Source of the DNA: Siderastrea siderea
Lineage: Eukaryota; Cnidaria; Anthozoa; Scleractinia; Rhizangiidae
Assembly (NCBI GenBank): GCA_964030785.1
Contig: OZ034972.1
Coordinates: 19,917,183-19,981,182 of the forward strand
DNA length: 64,000 bases
Reading direction: 5' to 3'
Positions 30,717-50,375 of this stretch are shown here, piece by piece. Each line of letters begins with the position of its first letter. The first letter of the stretch is position 1. The notes under the pieces were generated by a model. That model saw only the letters and a program-made list of their open reading frames with translations. It was not told where the DNA came from and did not search any database. A program made the position numbers and the translations under genes.

Positions 30717-31282
30717 CCTAATGCAGGTAGTTTGTGGGAAAAAGAATGGAGGCTAGAATTAAGCTGCCATCCACCATCATGCGATATGCTAATCTTCACT
30801 TTCCCTAGTAAGGTTACTGCAGAATATCCCAGACTGTGCTGAACGCTATTAGCGAATTAATCTCTTCAAATGTCAAATTCACACAGGTACCCATTGGTAC
30901 TGTCTGTCCCACCACATTTTGATGCCCTGTTTGATGGGCTTATGAGTACATGGTTTGAGGGATATCATTCATTTCAGAAATATGAACAATTCCTAAATTA
31001 TTTCTTTAGTGTCAATATGTAGAGACGTATTTTACAATGTCTGTTCTGTGCGTATCACTAGAAAATAATTGGATTCTGAAGATTTGTGGTCATAGCACCT
31101 ACTGTCGACAATTCATTAACACTTCCATCTAAGGACAGTGGTATTACTTAAGTATCTGGAAATTCCTAATTTTGTTTATGGGTCTTTCAACGTCAATTCT
31201 CTTAGAAACAATTTCTTGTGTTACAATAACTTCAGAAATTACGATTTTGCTGACATCTGGTTCCAACAAACAACTTAGGATT
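30717..31282. other. Non-coding stretch
   Basis: No gene or repeat recognised up to the start of the terminal repeat at 31283. Confidence 0.4.
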
Positions 31283-31620
31283 TAGACTTGCTCCAAGTCG
31301 ACCTCGTATAAATCGTTAAGCGAGCGACAAAAAAAACATAAAAAAGCGAGCGTTTGCGAGCGTGCGTTATAGCAAGTGACAAAAAAAACATAGAAAAAGC
31401 GAGCGTTTGCGAGCGTGCGTTATAGCGAGCACGGTCGCAAAGCGACCGTGCGAGCAAACGAGGTTGCAAAGCGACCGAGAGGGAGGTCGTGAAGCGACCG
31501 AGCGAGCGACGCAGTCGCGAGCGAGGTCAACTTGTTTCGCCTGAATAGATTTGAATCACATTAAAAATTCACGCGCGAAAAATGATTGACGTATGCTTTG
31601 TTGGGAGTGGCGTCAAATAA
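31283..31620. repeat. Left end of the DUF6589 element
   Basis: Begins tagacttgctccaagtcgac, followed by tata and a dense series of gcgagc/gaccg words to about 31530, then 'ttgtttcgcctga' and 'attcacgcgcgaaaa'. The MITE at 34899-35432 starts with the same terminal words and repeats the 'cttgtttcgcctgagtgg' to 'gtggtgtcaaat' segment in the same order. Exon 1 of the DUF6589 gene begins 65 bp further on. Confidence 0.75.
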
Positions 31621-34600
31621 CTTCAAATGGTATCACACGTGCCGCGAACTTCGCGGGTAATAACAAACTGTTGTCAGTCGGCGAATGGAAGCGGCGGGTT
31701 CTACTCCCACCAAGTCATTTTGTAGGCTATCTCTCACTCCAAATTCGAAGAACTCAGTTTGTTTACAGTGTGGCAACCGGATTGAGATCGCAGACAGGCG
31801 AAGGAAGCTTTTCGACGGTGGAGAGAAAACACAGTTTTGCAAAAACCTTGACAGGATCTTCGCTCTCAGTTCACCACACGCGGGTGATATTTCGTACTTC
31901 TCAAACATTATCTGCCGTCCGTGTTCTGACAGGAACATAACACTTTTAAAAAAAGTAGATAATGCTGGCAGAGTTCTAACTGAAACCCAAGATCGCTTGT
32001 CAAAAGAAAGAGGCGAAACCATAACCAAACGAGGACTTTCTTGCGAAGGTGAAGAAACTGCTGCTGAGTCGGGTGCATCTAACACTGGTGGCCGTGCAAA
32101 AAGAAGAATCGCACTCTTTTCAGAGGCGACAACAAATTCTTATTCTCCTGCAAATAGTGTAAAGGATCAAGGAACTCAAACTGATCAGGAGGCTAGCTCA
32201 GCATCAGTCAGTGTAAGTCTTGTATCTAGCATTATAAATCTCGTCCGTGAGGACTGCGAGTATTTAGAAGCCGTTCGTCACAATAAAAACATGTGAAGTA
32301 GTTTCTCAGTGCTTTCAATACAAATTTTGCTTATGACTCGAATAGATTTTAACATGTGTTCCAGCTTATTCCTAACTAACTATACCGCAAGCCTGAAAAA
32401 TTAAAAATTGAACTTAATGTTTGAATTAAAATGAAAGCAAAAAAACTAATGTCCTTTTGGGCGAATCGAATGCTTCATGCACAGCACAGAAACAAAAATC
32501 ATGTGAATCATTACGACTTTACTTGACATAGAATGCTGTTTCTCGTTTTATGAGATTTAGATTATTATTATAATTACTTTTTGGGGGGAGGGGGGCTTGG
32601 TTTTGGGTAATTTTCCTCTGGGCAAAAAAAAAAAATTATCTTCACGTTGGACAAGTTTTTTTTTTCAAATATGTAGGTTTTATTTTTTCATCCGAGGCTC
32701 CCTTTGTTCGATTTTGTTTTTTCGTCGGAGTGTTTCTGTGTGTGTGCGTGTTTATTTTTATTTTTTGCTTTGAACATTTAATCCCAAGCTAATAATATCT
32801 TTTGTCCTCTGTTTTAGGTTGTAATTAACTACCCCAACAGTGCTAGCAAATTAATCCACCTCCCAAGTCATTATCATCAGCTGTGTAGGCAGTTATCCCT
32901 TGGCACTCTGAAATCTGTTGCTGCAAGTGTGGTTAAAGTAGAAGCTCTCAAAACAGAAATTCTAGAGCAATTTTCTGTTGTAATCAAGGATGAGCTAAAG
33001 CAGCTGTGCTCAACAAACAATCCCTCTGTCTTGAGAAAAACAAGTAAGGAAGATCTTATTAACTTTTCATGGGATAGTGTACACAAGGAACTACAAGAGA
33101 AAACACCAACTGTAGAGAGATTTGCACTAGATTGTGTGGAAAATCCATCCCAATCCAGAAATCTCCACAAGAAGGATGAAGCACTTATTCCAGGCATGTG
33201 TGATGCTGTCTGCCAGCTCATATCGATTTTCAGTGAGGGCATGAATCTAACCAGAACAGTGAAAAGTGTGATTTTGAAGAAATGTGGGCTTACGAAGGTT
33301 GGATTTAAAAGGCCTGCGTCTGTGAATGTGTGTATGGGTTACAATGCAACTAACAGTTTGTTTGAGTGCTTTGGTGAGGACTTTGATAAGGAACTGTTGA
33401 AATGGAAGGAGCAGGTTGAGGAAGATGTTGAGAAAGAGAAGGAGATATCAGAGAGAATAGATCAGTTGGAGGAGGAGCAGGCTCCAGCTCATGAGATTGC
33501 AGAGGAGTGTGAAAGACTGAAAGCTCACAGGGAGAGTATGCATCCAGGATACTCATTCACTGGTGACAATGTCGATATGATGATCAAGCCTCGCCAAATG
33601 ACACAGGCAAATCAGAACAAGGATCATCATATGTTTCAGTATGTTGCATACGAGAACCGAGTATCCCCGAACCACCTCCCAGATGATGCACCGATAGGTG
33701 ATGTCACCAAGGTTCCCTTCACCACCTTCCTGCCCAGTACCGCAGAGCAAGAGCTTTTGTCAGAGGAGCTTGCCCTAGTAGTGTGCCACATGTGGGCAAC
33801 ACATATTCCCTCCCTCAGCTGGTTTGCCGATTGTGTTCCTACAAACATCCCACATAAGCACATGGATGATATGAAGAAGAAGACCAACAAAGTGAATTAA
33901 AACATATCATTTTTTATCTTGTTTGTACTCAGTGCTGACAACAAGCTTAGTGTTCAAAAAATTATCCAATCTGAAAAAACAAGGTACTCTTTCTGTGTAG
34001 ATATTGGAAACTAAAGTTTGAAATGAAAATGCTTGTCAGTTGTTTTTGTTCTAATCTGATTGTGCAGACTCCCTTTCTTTCCCCTGCTTGGTATTTAAAT
34101 TTTGGTTTATTCGGGGGAGCAAAAGTTATGTTTTGAATAATTTGTTTTATACCAAAAATTAATTAATAAAAGAGAAGTTGCTTTAATGTACTATAGGAAA
34201 ATGTGTTGTTTCAGAAAATATCCAAGCCCCTCCCACAGGAGGATTTTTGTTGTGAATTTCCACACTCCTCTGGAAAGGTCACTTAGATCCTATACTTTCT
34301 ATTATAGAATTTTGTATTTTGAGACCCTCACCCCTTCAGAAATTTCAATGACCTTTCATCAGTTTAGATGGATATTTTGTAGATTTTCACAATAGTAACC
34401 CTACATCATGGATAATGCAACAGATGCACATGCAGCTATCAGCACAAAAAGTAATGCAAAAATAACTATTTTTTTTTTCAAAAATAACAGGTGCACTTGG
34501 GAGTTCTCCGGAAAAATGAACAATATGAAGAAGAGATGGTTGATCTCCTAGAATGGCTTCATCAGTAGTTCCCGGCCATGATGAGGAAAATGTTGAGGCG

Positions 34601-34865
34601 GTACCCGTCAAGACTCTCAATGGTGGAGATTACCTTACATATGAACGCCACCAGGGAGCGCAGTCTTCAATGCAAGATGCTCGAACACCATCCACACAGT
34701 TGTCTGGTCTATTGGGAAAGTTTGAGGACTTCCATACTCAGTGTGAATGGCTTAAGGTAAATAAACTTCTACTGATAAGAATAGCATTCTGTGCTATCCA
34801 GAAAAAAAAAAACAGGAACTTACATTCTTAAAAATACTTACACTACACTAAGCAAACTGGTCCTG

Positions 34866-34883
34866 CCCCCCCCCCCCCCCCCC
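34866..34883. repeat. Poly-C tract
   Basis: An uninterrupted run of about 18 C directly before the MITE insertion point. Length in the assembly is uncertain. Confidence 0.9.
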
Positions 34884-34898
34884 AAACACACAAAGAAA

Positions 34899-35432
34899 TA
34901 GACTTGCACCAAGTCGACCTCTCATAAGTCCCTCGATCATCTATCGCTCGTCGAACGAGCGACGAAGTCACGAGAGGTCGACTTGTTTCGCCTGAGTGGA
35001 TTTGAATCATATTATAAATTCACGGGCGAAAAAATGATTGACATATGCTGCCTTGGGAGTGGTGTCAAATATCAGACACGTTACGTCATGCAAAACTGTC
35101 ACTCTCCTATTGGTCAATTGTCATGATGTCACCGGTGGAATTTCCGACCGGTGAATTTGGCGCCAAACAGGTATGAAAAGTCCTTTAAAATGGCCAATCA
35201 ACAAGAAAAAAAAATTTAAAGGACTTTGAGAAAGTCTAACAAAGAAAATACTGCACTGGTTTTTTAATTTGTAAAAACCTACTGGACCCCCATTGTAGAC
35301 TTTCTCAAAGTCCTGTTAAATTTTTTTTTTGGTGCCCGGTTGGTTGCTTCGCTTGCTCCCTCTCGTTCGAAGCAACCGTGCTTGCTATAATGCTCAATAT
35401 GTTTTATACGAGGTCGACTTGGATTAAGTCTA
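34899..35432. mobile_element. MITE derived from the DUF6589/RecQ element
   Basis: About 530 bp with inverted ends: tagacttgcaccaagtcgac on the left, and gtcgacttggattaagtcta on the right, which is its inverse with a few changes. The left 200 bp match 31283-31620. The middle ('attggtcaattg' to 'gactttgagaaagtct', 35112-35240) matches 45440-45578 just upstream of the RecQ gene. A further inverse copy of 'gactttgagaaagtc...ggtgcccggttggttgc' lies at 35297-35345. It sits in the last intron of the DUF6589 gene. Confidence 0.8.
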
Positions 35433-36984
35433 ATATCCTTGTGGCATGTGTGTTTAACCTAGGTCAGCGTTAATATTCAGTCAGTCAAATAACAACATGC
35501 AATATGTGTCTTGGATGAGAGTTTGCATGCAATAACTAGACATGGTTGCCCCCCCCAGGGGGGGGGGTGGTATACCAATGTACCAGAAAAACATGTATCA
35601 GGGCATGTACACAGTATACCCGAAATTTCCCCTCAAAAACAAAGATAAACACATTATACATAATAATAACAATAACACGAATACACCTATTTAAATTCCT
35701 CCAGATTACCCATATATAGAACCCTGGCTGACCATATCTCAGTCAAATCTGACGTAGGTTTAATGCTATATGTCTCATATAAATCTTGCTATTTCATCAC
35801 AATAACAGTCACATCCCATTTTTCTCAAAGGTGATTTGGCATCATCTGTACAGTACATCCTCTGCAAGGGATATCGGCACCCTATATCAAGCGAGAAATG
35901 CTATTAATGCAAGGAATGTCACCAAAGATCCACATAGTAATTACTATGCAGCAAGTGAGTTTCTGGACAAGGTACTGAAGGCCTATGTTGTTGCTGGTGG
36001 CTTGGAGCATTTTGGAATGGCATGTGTGGAGGATGAGCCAAAAGCGAACATCTTCAGTGGCAATCCATTAGACAAAGAAATGAAGAAAGAGTATGTGTTG
36101 AATGAAGCCAGGCAGTTTGTAAATAAACGTGTAATGCATCAAATACCAGAACTTGACACAGCTGCACCAACCAGCAACGACTTGGTGTGTCAGTTTTGCG
36201 TCAAGCGGTATAAACGTCAGGCATATCTTCACAAGCACGAAAGAGAGAAGCATGGTCAACCAGGACCTTCTGATCTAGACACACAGCAGACTGTTTCCCA
36301 GAAGGAGGATAAGGTATTTAATTACACCCACAACCTTCTAGTTTTGCTGCTGTTGCGAGAAAACCACAATGATGCAATAAGGCTTTGGGATGGAGAGAGA
36401 GTTGTAAGACTTTACAAGTTTTACACATTGTTCTTTAAGATTTCCAAGTGCCCCAAGTATGCACTTGCTACTCTGGAGCTTCAAGCACAGCTGAACTGCT
36501 TGCTTACACCTAGAATGGCATACTCCCTGACATGGAATCGATTTGTTAATCACAAGGGCCAGGTAGATTCCAATCATCCCATGGATTTAGACCTTGAACA
36601 TGATAACAAGTACTTCAAAACCGACATTCACAGCTTCAGGGGGGAAATTACAGACAAGAGCATCACAAGAGTAAGCAGAAGTGTGGAAGGTTCACAGGCT
36701 GTTCTGAGTAGCTTTGACAAGTCATCTTCTGTGGCAAAACCTTCTGGCAGACACACCCGATTGTCTACAAAGGATGATGTCTTAACTCTGGTGGAACATT
36801 TGGTCCAGGCACAAGTGTTCAGTTATGTTTCTGATAGGCAACACTCTGCATTTCCCAAGATGAGGCACAATTTGTTAGATAGTTTAGACATGCAAAAGCT
36901 CAAGTCATGGATAAGCAAATCTTTGAAGAAGTTTAGCACCAAACATTATTACAGAGTGCAATGAAACATGTGCTTTATTTGAAA

Positions 36985-37165
36985 CTTTTTAAATGCTACA
37001 CACAGTTAAAACTACTCAGCAGACTTTTTCAAAACTTTTTAAAGGCTAGTTAAAACAACTCAGCAGATCTTTTTCAACACTTTTTAGATGCTGTTTAAGG
37101 CAACTCAGCAGATCTTTTTCAAGACTTTAAGTTGCTGGTTAAAACAGCTCAGAAGATATTAGATC
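36985..37165. repeat. ~45-bp tandem repeat, about four copies
   Basis: Units with 'aaaacaactcagcagatctttttcaa'-like cores begin near 37014, 37058, 37103 and 37147. It lies in the 3' flank of the DUF6589 gene. Confidence 0.75.
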
Positions 37166-37583
37166 AAACAGGTGTATATTTTTAATCACCTTTGCATAAA
37201 TGATAAAAAAATATCTTTTTTAGAAAAAAGCCCACATAACTAAATGATTTCCCTTAAATTCAACTCAGTTGTTGTTGTTATGTGAAGGCTGAAGGCTTTG
37301 TTGAGAAAAAGCTGAACAATTTAGTTTCCAAAATACTAATGCTAACAGTAAATCAAGCATTGACTTAAGGTAAACAACAATTACAATGTATACATAACCT
37401 CAACACAGGGCTGCATCAAGGTCATACTTGACCAGTTTTCAAAACAAATTGTTTATGTTTTAGTATGCATGCATGGTGGAGAAAACTATTTGCCCACTTT
37501 TGTCAGGTTCACTTCAAACATGACTGTATGGAATTCACATGATGCATTAAATACGGGATATACAAATCTTGTCTCCATTTAAT
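37166..37583. other. Non-coding stretch
   Basis: No gene recognised between the tandem repeat and the TTAA element. Confidence 0.4.
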
Positions 37584-38935
37584 TTAAAGTGCCTATGAAC
37601 TAAAAATTTTTTTTGCACATTTTGGTAATTCATTATGTGTTAATTCCGAAATGGCAAGAGAAATTGGATGGCAAGAAACAAAAATCCGTTTTTTTGCCGT
37701 TGAAAGTCCCTAAAATGACCAAAATCGTGTCTCCGAAGACTGGGAACGAGTTGGCCGAGGAAGCGGGCCGTATGACGTCACAAATCGCGCAGAATGTTTG
37801 TCTCTTTGGTCTTTGTCAAGTGTTTGAGCGATGAAACTTACATTTTCCTTGCTAATATTGATATACAATGAAAGCTACCGACGACTGAGGAAAGCGCTAA
37901 GATTCAGCTCGAAGCGATTTCGAAGATGTGCATTTTTGGGTTTGTCGTCCGTGGATAAAGCCTAAACAACGACAACAACAATCTTGCGCGAAGCAAGATG
38001 GCGAATTGAATTGTTGGGATTGACTAACTTTCAGCTCTACTGGCTTGACTGGTCTTGAAGGAAAAGCTTCTAGAATTGAATGGTCAGTACTTTTATGTGT
38101 TAATAACGAGAGATTGACGCAGCCTTTACTTTACTTCTTTTGTTAAGAGCGTCGTTGTATGTGCTTCAATTATTTTACTCAAACCGATACCAGACAAGCT
38201 CAAGTTTACGGTGTACTTGTTTGTAACTTAATTTGTTCATCTTTTCATAGGTTTTCGCGCCAAGAGAAAGATAGACTCAGTTGTTCGGCTCTTTCGAATG
38301 AGGACTTTTGCAGAGAGAACACTGATATAAACTTATTAGTTAGCAGGATTTTGAACATTGAAGATAAGCATACCCAAAATTTGCTTGAAATATTACATGC
38401 CTAATGGCTGAGCCATCAATAGTAATTTCTAAAGAGCGTGTTTTATTTATTATAATCAGCAGCTACAAATGATTTTCAAATAAAAGTGGAGTGCTTGTAT
38501 TGTAATTTCAAGCCATTTATGAGGGAGCATCTCAAAGCAAATAAATAAGAATTTTTGAGTATGGTGCTCATTTGTGGTCTTTTGCTCCACCTGGAGGTGC
38601 TATGAGGATGACTGTGATAAATAAAGATGGACATTGTATGATACGCGTGCAAACTCAGACTAGTGTGACTTCAGCTTTGTCCTTGTAATAATCCGTCGCT
38701 TCTGACTACATGAACTGGTTTAAGTAATTGCCTACACAATATTAGACCAGCTGAGATTTTTGTCCTTCTGTTCAGCAATCTGCTTTAGGATTTTGGTTCA
38801 TACCAATTTTGTGGAAACATGCTATGGCAGGTGAGAGCTAGTGTGCTGAGTTATTACAGGCTTTATGTGATCACTTGTACTTTCATGATGCTGGTCTCAT
38901 GTAAATAAACTTAACCATACCTGTCCAGTTACACT

Positions 38936-39046
38936 GGCCCCAGTTGTTCAAAAGTTGGATAGCACTATCGACCGGATAAATCTCTATCCAGTGGATAATG
39001 CAATTGGTTTCCCTAACTCTTATCCACCTTTTGAACAGCTGGGGCC
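38936..39046. mobile_element. Small hairpin MITE (ggccccagttgttca ends)
   Basis: ggccccagttgttcaaaag on the left is the inverse of ttttgaacagctggggcc on the right. The interior has the repeated 'ggata' words (gaccggataaatc, tatccagtggataatg). I recall this element as frequent in anthozoan sequences. A more diverged relative is visible at about 41170-41300 (attggatagtgctattgatg ... aaaacagctgggga). Confidence 0.75.
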
Positions 39047-39724
39047 TGGTCTGAGTTCCCTTTGTATACTGGTCTCATATGACAATAACTCCCTTGGGTC
39101 AATCTCAACACTAAGATGAATATGTAATTTGTTCCAGAAGTACATTTTGAAGTGCCATTTTCATTGAAACATACACCCATTCCAATTCCATGAAGTATGG
39201 CAGAAATCAGTGTCAAGTAGAAGTTGCCCTCCTTGTGTGTGTAGTTTCTCTTCTTTTTTTGTTATTTTTGTTTAAGGAGGGGGGTGGGGTGGGGAGAGGT
39301 TAAGGCAGCTCCCTTGGATCCATAAACCCTTCAAATTACAGTACCCTCCCAGTACACTGTACACATGCGTGTATTAGCCGTTTTTGTTGTTAAGAGATAT
39401 GCTCTTCAGTTAAAAATGTCTAAGAGTCTGTGTTCGATCAAGCTCGCATAATCCTTTGAATTCGCCCAACACTCTCGTGTTTGCATCAGGCTTCCGCTAT
39501 GTAACCATGCATGCCACTATTAATGTTTGAAGATATGTATTTTACTATCTTGGGCACTTATTTAGTAACAGAACCCCCTTTGTTACCAGTGTTTTTACAC
39601 TGATGGGGCTATCCTGTGTATACATCATTATTATTATTAAAGCAGTACAAGACGTTTATATGCTATGTCCCTAAATAGCATGCATAGGGCGGGAACATAG
39701 CCTATGCAGCTAATTTTCAGAAAA

Positions 39725-39776
<52 letters not shown>
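39725..39776. repeat. (ATT)n microsatellite
   Basis: About 17 uninterrupted ATT units. Confidence 0.97.
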
Positions 39777-39777
<1 letters not shown>

Positions 39778-41103
39778 AAATTAAAGGTGGAGAACGAGAT
39801 CGAAAAGGCCCATTTTGAAACCTCATTATTGATTTTCTGTTGGCGAATTAGGTGGCTTGTGTGGTAGCTTTCTTGGGTACAGGGAATGAGTCAAGAAGAG
39901 ACTGAGACAATTCAGTGTGTGAGGAATTTCCAATACAAAGCCTGCTACAAAATTAAATAATGGGAAATGAAGGTCACATTTTCATTGCCCTTCAGTAATA
40001 AAAATGATTAAATAACTTATGCCATAAATTCAAATTAAACCTACATCACCAAGACTGTACTGCAGCAGGGTCAATTAGACAGTGTTAAGTGTGATATGTG
40101 AAATTTCATATTATATGGTCCTCTTGAGATAACAGGAGGGTCAACAAGAAGAGAGGCACAAATCTGTTTGAAATGTGTGGTGTTTAAAGAGAGGACCACA
40201 TAAATCAAATGCAGTGGAAGCAGAGTGACTTGCAATAAAAATTATCAATGCTGAGCTGAACTGCTTCCTTTTATTTGACGAAACATCACTAGGGATTTAT
40301 AAATATTCCTATAGCTATCTCTGATTAACTAAAACGTCTTGTGTCGTCGTCGGTCAAGACAGTTCTGTTCATTGTTATCCCTTCAAACTCTATGGTGAAC
40401 ATCCAGTTTGAGAAACGTATTGCATGTGGTTTCCAAAAAAACCGGAGATGTAAACAAAACTTTGTAGCTCAGTTATGTGTTGTAGATCTTGGATGCTTTT
40501 AGGTAAGGTGGACAGATGCATATAGCAATAGTTTTGTGGCCAAATATTGAAAACCTTCTTTATCTCGGTCTTTAATCTTGAATTGCGATAGTTGCTGCTA
40601 GTGGAACTAATCCACCAGTAGCAGAAGTTACAGATATTAATGCGACATTCAAATACTGCGGCTTTTCCTAGAAGCAGCTCTGTAATGCGGGTCGAATCGA
40701 ATTCTTACCGAGTCGAACACGGGTTCAAATGATGTCCGCTTCTCTCCCTAATTCGTTTCCTTTTGAGAAACGACACACACATGCTCTCATTGTGCGAATC
40801 CTGCCCTTGTAGCTTACAATCCTGGGCCCACCAGTCACTCCAAAGTAATTTCTCTTCTGGAAACCCTCTTGTCAGCCATCACACTCTTGTCCTCTGCGCG
40901 ATTTGTGACGTCACAGCCTTGTAATGTGATCGTTTTGGCCGCGCGCAAAATGGAGACACATTTCGGGTGCCAAATTCGAACTTTGCGGCTGGAAAAATAT
41001 CCCATGCAAAGGTTTCTACTCAGCAAAACTTACATATTTAGACTAAGGGAGTCATAAACTATCATATTTAGGAGAAAAATTTTTTAGTTCATAGGCACTT
41101 TAA

Positions 41104-41934
41104 GTGAAAGCCTTAGCAAATTGAACCGAAACTTGGAACAAGTTTTACTTTCTTGTGCAAATGAAGGTCTCAATGATTGGATAGTGCTATTGATGGGACA
41201 AAACACTATCCAGAGGATTCTTTTTAGGAAAATCAATGGCTTTATCCTGTGTAGAGGTTTAATTGGCTGATAGCTCTAACCAAAATTTAAAACAGCTGGG
41301 GAGAGCTGACTTTCATCTGAATAATTAAGCCATTTTTCACCTTAAGTTATGGTAGAAACCTATAAGCATACTAAAACAAATGATGTGAACTGGTTAGCTC
41401 ACAAAAACACCATCCATTGAGTGAGAAATATTAACTTTGAACAAAGAAGAAAAATAATAATACCGGTACATTTTGGAATGAAATTAAAGTAAATGTGGAA
41501 ATCGGTTTCAACTTCTACTCATTGCACAATAATCCCTGGGGGAAGGGGTACTTGGAATTCAAGTGACAAGGATGAACAAATGATGTCACAACTCAAGGGC
41601 CCAACAAAACCCCAAAAAACCCTGGAACAAAAATTATGCCCCCAAAAATCTTGTTTGGAATCCTACCAGGATTGTTAAAATTGCTTAAATGACTATAACA
41701 ATTATTGTTGTTTAATTTCTACTTGCGAAATTTTCCTACACCAAAAAAACCCTGACACTTGGAAATCCTAAGTATTCCCTCTGAGACAATAACTGACCAA
41801 GCAGAGCATGTCACAAAAAGCTTTTAGTGTGGCAATAACAATAAAGAAAAGAGAATTGGCCAAGCCTGACCAAAAAATACACATATACCCTGATATGTGA
41901 CACATTAATTGGGAAAACAATGCCACAAGTTCAC
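41104..41934. other. Intergenic stretch with a relic hairpin MITE
   Basis: Contains a diverged relative of the 38936 MITE (about 41170-41300). The rest would be the 3' flank of the RecQ gene. Confidence 0.4.
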
Positions 41935-44900
41935 TTAATCAGAGTCTCCTTCAGATGAGCTTGCATCATCAGAAAAGACTATTCCAGTTATCTTCTGTTT
42001 CCTCCTCCGGAAAACTGGACTGTCAGAGGTGCTGGAATCATCAGTGGAACTAGTATCAACTTCTGACTCATCACTGGTGTTTGAATTGTTACTTTCACTA
42101 GAGGCATCACTCATCTCTTGATCATCGGTAGCTTTCAAGTGGCACTCCAAAATCTCCCATGTTCTAGTGACATGATCCTCAGAGTAAAATGCAAAATTGT
42201 TCTTCAAATACTCTCTGTCTCTTATGTAAGCAATACGAGAAACAATGCCATCAATCAATTGCTTACTGTACCCTGTGGCAACATCAATTCCTGTAACCAG
42301 CTTGTCCTTTGCCTCTGCTGCAAGGGATGATCTATAGTCCATGAGCTGTTGCCATATTGTTTGAACAGTTTCGCGAGGGAGAGCGTTGACTTTGTCACTA
42401 TGGTCATTAAGACTGGTTTCTCTGTCCAGCAGAAACTTCTCTATTTTTGATAAGTGCTTCTCCTGTTCACACTTTGGGTCACAAGAACAATCACTGTCAT
42501 CACAAAAGCAAAGACACTTACATTTCATGGCACACACATCACAACATGAATGCAGCACTCTGTCCTTTGGAGCAGATGACTTGAATTTGGACAATAACAT
42601 CTCTCTCCTACACTGAGTTGTGTTATTAACATAACTTCTCATGTCCTTGCTGACGTTTTTTGTTCCTGTGCAGTTCTTAAATTTAAGCAACACAGCATGA
42701 CTCATCTTTGTTGAGTCTCTTCCGATTCTACCTGTCTCTTGCAGGTAATCGTCAAGGTCAGCAGAAGGCCCTACGTGGATGTCGAGGTAGATATTCCTCA
42801 CATTAACCCCCATGCCAAACGCAATAGAGCAAAAAAGCACCTGAACTGTACCATCTGGCTTACAGAATTCCTTCTCGATGGTCTCCTTTACGAGTTTCTG
42901 GGTTCTTTTGTGGTACATTGCAAAAAGTCTACTACGGTCATCCTTTGGCTCTGTGCCAGTGGGGCGATAGTAAGACTTGTCACCCAAGTGTTCAGCAAAA
43001 AGCTCATAGAGCTCCTTCATGTGTTCTTTCCGCCGGCAGAATATGATCACCTTTTCAGTTTTTTGTTGTTCTGCCTCTAGTTCTCTAATGAGCCACTCAA
43101 ACCATCCATACAAGCTGTCAGTCTTCGGTGTTATGATGGCATACTTGGTGTTTGGCCTGTTTGGGTCACTGCCCACAACAACACAATCCTCCATGCACAG
43201 CTCCTTTATGATAACATCCCTTGTGGTATCTGTTGCAGTGGCTGTCAGGCAGATGAAGGGCACATCTTTCTTTAGAAGTGATCTCAGTTCTCCTAGTCGG
43301 CCATAGTCTGCTCTGAAGGCAGCAGCACTTTTGTTCTCTTTACCCCTATGAGAAATTATAATAAAACACTAAATTGTCTACAATTCAGATTGGTTAACCT
43401 TGTTCACATGACATGAAACCCGGTAACTCAACCTTGGATAATTCGAACACTCGGCTAACCCAAACTAACTTCCAATTCCCTTGGATTTGACCCCACTTCT
43501 AAGACAGTTTTACTTGGTTAACTTGAACACGGATAACTAAACTTGCCCGCTAACTCGAACTAAAATTATTGTTTCCCTTAATCAAAATTTGGGTAAAATT
43601 TACCCAGATGACTCGAATTATGGTTCTTGCAACTCGCCACGATTGCCCATTGATTACTCAGAGCAATGAACAGATCACGTAGTTGACAGACATTTACCAC
43701 TAAGAATTTACTCATAAGAATGCAGGGATGTAAATAATAGGCAGAAGGCGGAAAAATAACCACCTGAATACTTGAATTTTCTGACTAAAAGACTGTGTCT
43801 GGTTAGATCTTTCCTTAAAATGTGACCCAAATTTTCTGCCTGTGATCAAGAAAATTTCACCTGTTGGAAATCTTAGCTACAGTACATTCCTGGAATGTAT
43901 CATCGTGTTAGAATTTCTTACTTAAAAAAAAACTGTAAGTTTAAATTGCACTGCACTGTATACCGCTGGAGTGCTAAAAAATCGGCAAACTATCAATTAT
44001 TTACTTGGAAAAATAAATAATCAATTGACCCCTTTAACTCTAAATCCCAGTTTGAGTTACTAGGGTTCAAACTGTTGTTTTACCTGCAGAAGCACACTAT
44101 CAGCCCATAGGTCCCAGCTAAGGAAAATACTGGATAGTCTATGTCCATAAGCACACATGCAAGTGCAAACAAAACCATAAGATGTGACCCAAAGCATCAG
44201 GAGCATAACCCTAAAGCAAACATTAATTTCTTGCATTTATGTCCTTGGTAATAGACACAAGCACAGGGAGAATGCAATTTTTTTGATTTTCTTATGTGTA
44301 ATTGAGAATACAGAAAGAAAGGGACCTCATACATCGTGCTTGAATTCAAGTGGAACAGCCCAGAAATTACCAAAGATAAATTACAGGTATAAAAACATTA
44401 AGACAGAAATTGTCAGCAATTTGAGTAATTTAAAAAAAAAATCAACACCCTGACCGAAGTGGTTAAGACTCTTTCTTCAATACGATCACTACATTTTTCA
44501 TTTAAGAAATTACAGAGGGTGTCGGGTCCAAAATGTTTGAAGTATGGAATTTTTAGAAAAAAACAATTGACAACAACTAGCAAAAAGTTCAGTATCAAAA
44601 CCTTGTCCAAAAATTAGTATAAGATTCAATCGAAATTATTTTACCTGTGATAACATCATTCCTGAAAATTTGACATAACTTTTTCCATCTACCAAAGCAA
44701 ATTGACATTGGTTTAAATACAAAGATAGATTATAGATTTATCGATTTGTGTCAAGTGTAATTTGCTTTGAAATTATTCTCATCTGCAAGGTTAATTTTTG
44801 TCCATTCGATATTAAAATTACTGTTTCCTGATAGTTTCTGTCTTAAGCCTCTCAACCTCATGCTTACCATTTTGCAATACAGTGACTTTCGTCGACAAAA

Positions 44901-45382
44901 ACAGCTTTGATCGAGTCCTTTAAGTCTCGAATGACAGTTCTGTGGGAGTTCAACAGAGCCTCAGGACTGCCAAACAAAAGGTTGAACCGACCAAGTCGAA
45001 TGTCGTTCATTTCGGCGACAGTACTTTCTGGGCCGATAATGGCTGCTGCTATGCCGCGACTTTTCAAGCCAGCAACTTGGTCTTTCATTAATGACACGAG
45101 AGAGGCCACCACAAGACAAACGGAGGATATATACGTTTGCTTTTCTGCGTTATCGACTCCCACTACAATTCCCTCAAAGACAAACGGGGCAATCTCAAAG
45201 CACAACGACTTGCCCGATCCAGTCGGAGAGCAAAAAAACACGTCCTTTCCAGTGAGAAAAGCCTCCACGACACTTTTCTGACCGTCTCGTAACTTACTGT
45301 ATCCTAATTTCTGCAGGCCAAAGTTTAAAACCCCTTCCATGTCTTCCAAATCGTCATCCATGCTTCGAAGAAACAAAAACAA
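41935..45382 (-). CDS. RecQ-like SF2 helicase, two exons, intact
   Basis: Exon 1 is 45361 (or 45382) to 44868, ending AAATG|GTAAGC. Exon 2 is 43345 to 41935, preceded by TCATAG. The join gives a TGG codon and about 634 residues. The order is a Q-motif-like KLGYSKLRDGQKSVVEAF, Walker A PTGSGKSLC, motif II VFVDESHCIAKW, motif III LTATATDTT, FCRRKEHMKEL and motif VI LQETGRIGRDS. A cysteine-rich zinc module follows (SCCDVCAMKCKCLCFC) with a Ser/Asp-rich tail. No RQC or HRDC part was seen. RecQ enzymes unwind DNA 3'-5' in repair. Here the gene lies convergent to the DUF6589 gene, and its upstream 200 bp are shared with the MITE, so an element-borne helicase is likely (inference). The 1.5-kb intron has repeated 'aactcgaac/ggttaac' words, perhaps a small relic. 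Confidence 0.85.
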
Positions 45383-45580
45383 AGATGGCGTCTTTCTCGA
45401 GTCTCAGATTACTTCATGACAAAAACCCGTCGCTCTGCTATTGGTCAATTGCCATGACGTCACCGGTTGAATTTTCGACCGGTGAATTTGGCGCCAAACA
45501 GGTATGAAAAGTCCTTTTAAAAGCGCAACCAACCGGGCACCAGAAAAAAAATTTAAAAGGACTTTGAGAAAGTCTACTTA
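45383..45580. repeat. Segment shared with the MITE, upstream of RecQ
   Basis: 'attggtcaattgccatgacg', 'ccggtgaatttggcgccaaa' and 'gactttgagaaagtct' occur in the same order at 35112-35240 inside the MITE. Its position directly before the helicase start suggests the promoter side of the right end of the parent element. The right terminal repeat itself was not found in the next kilobase. Confidence 0.75.
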
Positions 45581-46700
45581 GGATTTTAAATTTGTCAATT
45601 TAGTACTTAGGGTTTAATTAGCTTATTCATTCATATTTAACTCATTACCGGCCGCGTGTTTTTTGATCGATTCGCTAAATTAGCAGTTGGTAATAAACAA
45701 CCCCATGTGCAGTACGAAACGACAATTTATAGGCTCGAAAACACAACACTCACTTGATCTAGAATAGTTAGAATTTCTAACTTTCGAATAAAATACACCA
45801 GTTGTCAATTAAGAATTAGCCAAAAATACAATCTTGAAGTCAAAATTTTGAAAATTTACGCAAGAGATTCACATGTTGTCTCGCGCGTGAAATCAAACCA
45901 CAACAGAGGATTTGTGTGTGTTTAGGTCAGATTACTATTTTTGGAAATTTTATGAACGAAGATTCGCAGAAGAGGAGACAGTAAGCTTTTCTAAATAACA
46001 CATTTATTAATACACGCCTTTATTCGTTTCTGAAAACCAAATGCGTTCAATTCTTTCTTCGAGGGAAGCTACGCGCAAGCGATTTCGCTCGATGTGCAAG
46101 TTATTTTGAAGAGCATTTACTGATGCGAACTGTGCACGTTTTTCAAAACTTTTATGAAAACTTTAAGAAATACAGAATCCTTCAATTAAGAAGTTATTTC
46201 GGTAAAAATTTACAATCAAATGTGTAATTTACTCTACCGTAGACTCGTAGAAGTGCGTGAGCATTTCCCAGAAAGTCCGCAGTTCGAAAAATCTCTTGCG
46301 ATGCAAGATCGTCCTTTGCTTTGACAAAACAGCTGTTCGTCCTCGAAAGATGTTTTCTTCGCTCTAAAAGCTCTAAATTCCATCGCTTAACTTGTCGAGT
46401 GTTCCTTAGAGCTTCTTCTTTCGATTTTTAAGTTTCAAAAGGTAATCCTTCCTTCCGAGAGCGAGATATTGCCATCTTGAAAATTCACGCGTGAAGAGCA
46501 CGGCAGCCATTTTGAGTGAAATGTGATCTTCTTGGAGAGTGACAAAAAGTCTTCCCTTCTAGGACCCCCTCAAGCCTTCAAATATATGTGCAGTTGGTGG
46601 ATTCTGATTGGTTGAACATTCCCAAAGACAACTAGGACAAAAGGGGACCAAAAAAGCCTTTCTAGGGGAGGCTGGGGCCAAAAGCGAACACGCGCAAAAT
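45581..46700. other. Non-coding stretch
   Basis: No gene recognised. Searched by eye for the expected right TIR words (gtcgacttgg, aagtcta) without success. Confidence 0.4.
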
Positions 46701-47984: not shown

Positions 47985-50375
47985 AATTCTTAAGCAACAA
48001 AATGAAGACTAAAGTAACAGAGATGACAATGTGTTGCATCTTTGTTTAGAGTATTTTCAAAACTCTCTAGTCCCGATTCTTCTTGCTGCCACATTACGCA
48101 CTGCCTTCAACGCTTAGACTCTGCATGCTGTATAGACATCAGCTAATTTTACTACCTGCATTGTTTGAAAAATGCAGATTGCAGGGTGTGGCAGTGAAAA
48201 AAGTGAAAAATGATGATGCAGATAAAGCAAGTAAATGAAATATAAAATAAAATAATAGTGATATAAAAATATGGGCAATAAAAAACGAAAGTGAAACATA
48301 ACTATTTCACGTGCACCTGGTTTGCTATCAAACATTTCACTTGAACAATGTGCGCGAACCTAAGAAAGCTGGCCATCGGTGCAATGCTGTCTGTCAATGG
48401 ATTTTTCACTGTAAATGTGCAAATAGCTTTTCTTTATTAAAATGATTTATCTCAAAATCAACCTGTGGAAAAAAAAAACAAAGCAACAAAGAAATATGAC
48501 AAAATACCCTGCCTTTTGTGTTCTTTTGCCAGCCAGTGTAACGTTTTTGTCATGGCTTGCTTTTCAGCTCAGTTGAAGGTGGAGTTTTCAATTGATATGA
48601 TGAATACATCTAGTCTCACAGGGCGTTTAGATTGCTTCTTTTTATGTAATAGGACGTTTGGTTATTTGTTTGCTTGTTTGTTGTTTTTTTTGTTTCAGAA
48701 AGTTTTTCGCATTACTTGGCATCATGTTGGTGGCACTTTGCCCTCTTTTATTCTGGTCTTTTTCTTAATGCTATGGCGGGTTAATGTCAGTTGTTGACCA
48801 CTGAGTGCATTAAATTTCGATGAGCGATATATTTTGTGAAAGCTTCTAAGGTTTCTAGTTATTGCGGTCAAATTTCCAAGCTTGACTGTAAACCTTCTTT
48901 TTCATGGGTAGATACCAATCAATTTCGTTTTCGTTAAATCACGTAATTTTGTTGATAGCTGTTTATTTGTTTACCATCGCAGACTATCTACTTTTTCCCA
49001 TTCATTGGATGCACATTGTTTTGAACCATTAAGTTTTTTTAAACGTTCTTTCTTTTAGTCTGTTCCAGAAGTCTATGGCTTAGCTTACAAGATCTGCCAA
49101 AATGTAAGAAGCTGTTAACAAAGACAATAAGATTACTTAATGCCGGTATCCAGCAGCCATCCATCGCCACCTGCTTTGATTCCATCGACCCAAAACTGAA
49201 ACAAGTTAAGGATCAATCTTATTAAAACCATGAAAAACTCGTCATCTATAATTGTTGCTTGATAATTTGATCGTACTCCTTAAGCAGTGAAGGATCTCTT
49301 CTCAACTTTTGATGCAAGGACCTTAGACGACTAAAGCATAATTGATATTCACTTTTCTCAAAGCGTGACTGATACAGAACGTGGAAAGAAGGTCTCGAGA
49401 ACATCTCTGAAACAGGGAATGTCTCTGAAGAGCCTTGTGTTCAGAAGAAGGAGATCCTTTTTTCATACAATACATTTGTCCTTGCACGACGGGATGAAAC
49501 ACCTGAATATCTTCACAAAACCAAATGCGTTTCAGGGTTTTTTTTACAAATGAAATTCTTCCAGTTCATGTCTTAATTGTTCTACATTCTCAGGCAGACA
49601 TAAGGTATGGTTGAACAAAGCATTGATTTCTTTCTCAGTCTTTTCATTGATGACTCGGGAACTGACCATGGCACTACTTTGAGCTAAGGGTAGGTTTGGC
49701 GTGCCAGGGGAGGAACTTGGTTTCTAGGATGACCTCGCCTCAGCCATTGACATAGAAATGAGAAGGATGGTACCAGGTTTGGGTGGAAATGTCAAAGACA
49801 AACACTTAAAGCAATATCTATGGCCATTTGCATCGTCTGTCCTGTCCCCCCTTGGAGTTGTTTGTGACTTTTCCAATTCTCCAAAGGCCTAGAGAGCCGC
49901 GATAAATTATGCTGTAACTGTTGACGCACGTAACCACCCTTGCCCAAGTTTTCAGTGGCTTGTTGCACGCAAGGATCTGACAGGACCAAAACGAGCAGAA
50001 AGGGGGTTAAGAATTTGCTGCGAGGGTGTTGAGGTCCACTTGAATCCCAAAATGTTTGCCCAAATCTTTAGCCAGTTGATCCACCCCGTCTGCTCTACCC
50101 ATATAAAGCACATATCTACTACCAATGGAAAGCCCCATGTCTCCTGCCATCATGTAAATGTTGGGTGGCATCCTCTAGGAAAATGTACCCTGTGTTTGGC
50201 CCTACAATGGCCAGAATCTCTGCTTGGTTAACTTTAAGGCCAAAGCAAAGTCATTGAGGTGATGATCTCGACACTGCCCAAAGGTGAACCCAGCAGCTAG
50301 ACCATGCTTGACACGTTTGGCTAAATGATCTTCAGTAGTGGCTAAGTAATCTTCCGACTTCAAATCTTTGTAGTA
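47985..50375. other. Long stretch without recognised gene
   Basis: Short frames only (for example 48465-48797, plus, without a domain that I know). No ordered repeats seen. It ends at the MULE target site. Confidence 0.35.

Follow-up and report, generated by a model that had tools for sequence, protein, structure and literature searches.

Do two genes that face each other on a coral contig travel together as one mobile element? In a stretch of 64,000 nucleotides from Siderastrea siderea (GCA_964030785.1, contig OZ034972.1, positions 19,917,183 to 19,981,182; referred to below as the window), a first-pass annotation placed a plus-strand DUF6589 gene opposite a minus-strand RecQ helicase gene, an arrangement that Pfam profile matches confirm, and proposed that both genes belonged to one parent DNA transposon. 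We consider it probable that they form a cut-and-paste DNA transposon of the AcademH type with two genes; the proposed mechanism involves a DDE transposase and the RecQ helicase, and miniature inverted-repeat transposable elements (MITEs) would be moved in trans. The genome contains a mobile unit with ends, 9-bp duplications and convergent genes, as well as internally deleted derivatives that have moved, most of them approximately 98% identical to the copy in the window (MITE1).

The right terminal repeat, which had been reported missing, is present. Including later insertions the element covers 14,294 bp (31283..45576, plus strand), starts with TAGACTTG, finishes with AAAGTCTA, and is flanked by two copies of the 9-bp duplication CTTAGGATT, read directly from the flanks at 31274..31282 and 45577..45585. 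An element lacking a right end is thereby ruled out. Both ends are palindromic, with TA-GACTTG-CTC-CAAGTC on the left (31283..31299, plus strand) and TA-GACTTT-CTC-AAAGTC on the right (45560..45576, minus strand), and have in common TAGACTT and the palindrome. The 13-mer CCAAGTCGACCTC of the left-end sequence was counted six times in the window at up to two mismatches, compared to a shuffle mean of 0.75; one of the six matches lies outside the element at 50031-50043.

Searches of the genome (831 Mb, 402 contigs, designated C1, C2 etc.) with a DUF6589 exon identified three near copies with 95-99% protein identity. The copy on C2 (10,346 bp) aligns from 31283 to 45576, its DNA pieces are 98-99% identical over the common coding parts, and it carries its own exact duplication, GGGCTACAG. 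One copy on C14 (0.57 Mb) has the duplication GAGAGAAGA/GAGAGATGA with one mismatch, its right end being assigned by a string match past a run of N, while the other (25.0 Mb; 5,946 bp) no longer contains the RecQ part and shows no matching duplication. A diverged copy on C8 (8,887 bp; DUF6589 exon 56% and RecQ exon 46% identical) is bounded by the duplication AGGCGACAT and has ends of the same design as the window element. For two further diverged copies (C2 at 29.4 and 71.7 Mb) and for the copy on C9, a search that allowed up to one mismatch found no TAGA/TCTA pair accompanied by a 9-bp duplication, although approximately 1.5 kb from the RecQ match of the 29.4-Mb copy the listing contains a right-type end. 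Among other RecQ-DUF6589 families, two near-identical left stretches of 3.5 kb were alike nearly throughout, so that no boundary was reached within them.

The same two genes also occur together elsewhere in the genome. A search with a RecQ exon yielded 97 rows (best 95 of 500 candidates scored) that correspond to 94 loci. At 68 loci a DUF6589 match is present no more than 15 kb away, always in convergent orientation, where a simple density estimate predicts 0.4. DUF6589 matches came from searches in which the best 102 of 418, 106 of 379 and 72 of 811 candidates were scored; from the 75 rows of the last search the 28 loci not already listed were added, which raised the count to 73 of 94, again all convergent, with 0.5 expected. 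Members of the same family, and likewise segments that have been duplicated, each enter these counts as loci of their own; loci within a family do not represent independent events. The remaining 21 RecQ loci have no DUF6589 partner within 15 kb among the matches listed, and the partner lists are lower bounds. At seven loci of the best-scoring DUF6589 subfamily (L001-L003, L005-L008; open frames up to 639 aa) no RecQ was found within about 1.5 kb; this subfamily may be free of a helicase or may carry it at a greater distance. That two unrelated repeats have become neighbours by chance has only the high repeat content in its favour; the convergent pairing, the common ends and the duplications refute it, and we give it practically no weight. 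Nor do the genes always occur in unrelated contexts, the outcome that the first-pass annotation had named as fatal to its proposal. Since the ends with their 9-bp duplication, near and diverged copies with the same ends, and the 73 convergent pairs all agree, we conclude that there is one parent element with both genes.

The miniature elements tell the same story. A 530-bp MITE had been described as carrying the sequence upstream of the DUF6589 gene followed by that upstream of the RecQ gene. The order holds for 34899-35238; the single 530-bp unit does not, because its flanks reveal two elements, MITE1 and MITE2. MITE1 (340 bp, 34899..35238, plus strand) sits in an intron of the parent and consists of the parent's left end joined to its right end, so the middle of the presumed MITE is no independent repeat and MITE1 is an internally deleted derivative. 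Its duplication ACAAAGAAA is found at 34890-34898 and 35239-35247, and in the three other near copies the site is unoccupied and carries a single ACAAAGAAA. In the genome we found at least 56 matching pieces (best 40 of 82 candidates scored). Out of 20 loci taken, the window's included, 19 were full length, and the twentieth (L058, left end missing) was left out of the duplication count. Exact 9-bp duplications flank 17 of the 19, the other two having one mismatch; two of the loci (L050 and L051) share their flanks and represent one insertion in a duplicated segment, which leaves 18 distinct insertions, 16 of them exact. Identity to MITE1 is 96.8-98.8% at seventeen loci and 87% at one. MITE2 (35296..35432, minus strand) is an inverted miniature element of greater age whose ends are of the same type. 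Its two 9-bp flanks differ at five of nine bases, and it was found whole only in the four near copies, window counted, and at one locus on C5 (14 of 14 candidates scored) that also has the right end of the family.

What, then, do the two proteins do? The DUF6589 gene (PF20231, E 1.4e-22) is divided into four exons on the plus strand: exon 1 (31685..32293, end approximate) with a CxxC...CxxC layout, exon 2 (32818..33891, ends inferred from splice-like sites), exon 3 (34530..34756, start approximate, end likewise from a splice-like site) and exon 4 (35831..36964, start from a splice-like site), which holds the PF20231 match and a C2H2-like finger (36182-36256). Relatives have a zf-AD domain at the position of the CxxC...CxxC layout, for which Pfam gave no match in the window's own exon 1. 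The reading frame of exon 3 is broken in the window copy and unbroken in the three other near copies. Candidate catalytic residues are an Asp in GDNVD of exon 2 (codon 33565-33567), a second Asp in GGDYLTYER of exon 3 (codon 34628-34630) and a Glu in exon 4 (codon 36596-36598), and this D, D, E set is conserved. Among known structures, the transposases of the P element, hAT (Hermes) and RAG1-Transib rank best against the predicted DUF6589 fold, with the caution that applies to helical models. Foldseek returned nothing at E <= 0.001 with the DUF6589 model, and the DUF6589 profile found no match among PDB chains by sequence at E <= 10. From the conserved residues and the fold ranking, the protein is likely a DDE transposase. 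The earlier description of a DNA-binding protein of unknown catalysis with its own helicase thus stands for the two genes within one unit, and its unknown catalysis gives way to a likely DDE activity. Target duplications are 8 bp long for P and hAT elements and 5 bp long for Transib, compared to the 9 bp seen here, and to our knowledge none of the three carries a helicase gene. The fold ranking cannot separate P/hAT from Academ, since we know of no solved Academ structure. Our literature search found no paper naming DUF6589. Directly after the stop codon of the gene there are three tandem repeats of 44-45 bp (37024-37157).

The RecQ gene on the minus strand has two exons, both with open frames in the window copy as well as in the one on C2. 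Exon 1 (44868..45361, from its ATG) contains the Walker A motif GSGKS (45206-45220) and DESH (44882-44893), and exon 2 (41935..43345) contains Helicase_C, a RecQ zinc-binding region and an acidic tail. DEAD (E 3.2e-16) and Helicase_C (E 5.7e-13) are well matched, and RecQ_Zn_bind reaches 24.1 bits, just below the cut-off of 25. By family, the polarity of the enzyme is presumably 3'-5'. The helicase might be a passenger without a role in transposition. The 21 RecQ loci without a listed DUF6589 partner and the RecQ-less copy on C14 speak for this. However, three copies (window, C2, C8) have RecQ enclosed between the target-site duplications, its exons are open in the first two of these, and by eye the RecQ and DUF6589 similarities of the closest pairs drop together; we consider a mere passenger quite improbable.

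Between the two genes lies a TTAA-flanked insertion of 3.5 kb (37588..41099) with imperfect inverted ends AGTGCCTATGAAC... that is missing from the C2 and C14 0.57-Mb copies. No reading frame of 120 aa or more is listed for it, and the combination of TTAA and 5'-RR/YY-3' ends agrees with how Kolobok is described.

A helicase gene is not unprecedented in such a unit. To judge by the title of Kojima 2020, AcademH is a lineage of the Academ superfamily comprising helicase-encoding DNA transposons of animals and fungi, and the relevant passages of PMC10045372 give target duplications of 9 or 10 bp. The likeness is drawn from described features. Exact 9-bp duplications flank the window element, the copies on C2 and C8, and the MITEs at the 17 MITE1 loci, one near copy being without any; RecQ is encoded between the ends; and the conserved D, D, E together with the predicted-fold ranking would agree with a DDD/E transposase. 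The AcademH passages in PMC10045372 name neither DUF6589 nor palindromic ends, either of which Kojima 2020 may describe; the link to DUF6589 and the palindromic ends may be new. Passages of PMC9587614 describe KolobokH, DDE transposons with a RecQ helicase reported only from fungi, and Kolobok-1_CCri, which has RecQ on the complementary strand. They resemble the present element in having RecQ in a DDE transposon, but Kolobok duplicates TTAA (PMC9587614), whereas here 9 bp of varied sequence are duplicated. Alternatively, DUF6589 elements could constitute a separate DDE superfamily, more closely related to P/hAT than to Academ, which gained RecQ independently of AcademH. The best-ranked folds would suit this, yet a 9-bp duplication and an element-encoded helicase in an animal are what the passages in PMC10045372 describe for AcademH, and we regard a separate superfamily as rather unlikely.

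For the preferred AcademH-type transposon we propose that the DUF6589 protein would bind the palindrome at each end through its N-terminal CxxC module, recognising it either as a symmetric site or as a hairpin. Its DDE active site would cut and join the DNA, and a staggered target cut would leave the 9-bp duplication. RecQ might open the ends, resolve intermediates, or assist repair once cutting or joining has taken place, and MITEs, which have neither gene, would move when the proteins are supplied in trans.

Are the palindromes themselves maintained? MITE1 has the same palindromes as the element, the C8 copy has them with other loops, and the left end of MITE2 is an imperfect palindrome. With the same search, 0.9% of random 26-mers give arms of 6. 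The window has six mismatch-free instances of TAGACTT-N5-AAGTC, and these coincide precisely with the two ends of the element, of MITE1 and of MITE2. In the whole genome the left form TAGACTTG-n-CAAGTC was counted 964 times (reversed control: 12) and the right form 657 times (control: 108). There are two mismatched forms, TAGACTTG-n-AAAGTC and TAGACTTT-n-CAAGTC; the counts cover the first (43 compared to 63 for the control). The places listed for the left form show several loop types, among them CTC, CAC, CCA and CCCA. Together with these loop types, the 964 places may point to numerous MITE families that are mobilised by related transposases. Among the C1 rows in the first 100 places listed per pattern, 18 of 89 left forms face a right form within 2 kb and 20 of 89 within 15 kb, compared to one when the orientation is flipped, and 5 of 89 face another left form. 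In many elements, therefore, one end has the left form and the other end the right form. At the 19 MITE loci, left ends agree in all 19 and right ends in 17. The 87% copy has both arms of its right end changed (GATTTT-CTC-AAAATC), and in one other MITE a change on one arm breaks the pairing, so repeated compensation rests on a single MITE. The paired difference between left and right arms may go back to a single ancient change that was passed down to all elements. A speculative idea, which we think unlikely to hold, is helicase-assisted structure-guided recognition: a lineage in which paired changes keep the palindromes, and in which the RecQ encoded by the element unwinds the ends so that they fold into hairpins for the transposase to recognise. 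No paper on palindromes and hairpins at transposon termini came up in our literature search.

Pfam treats DUF6589 as a family of unknown function. If it is indeed a DDE transposase that is often accompanied by a RecQ helicase, many 'uncharacterized' proteins of cnidarians and molluscs would be products of transposase genes, and annotators would have to reckon with numerous RecQ-like genes in such genomes that may not belong to the host. With the MITE1 family and its parent carrying both genes, the question of whether a cut-and-paste transposon of eukaryotes depends on a helicase of its own becomes accessible to experiment.
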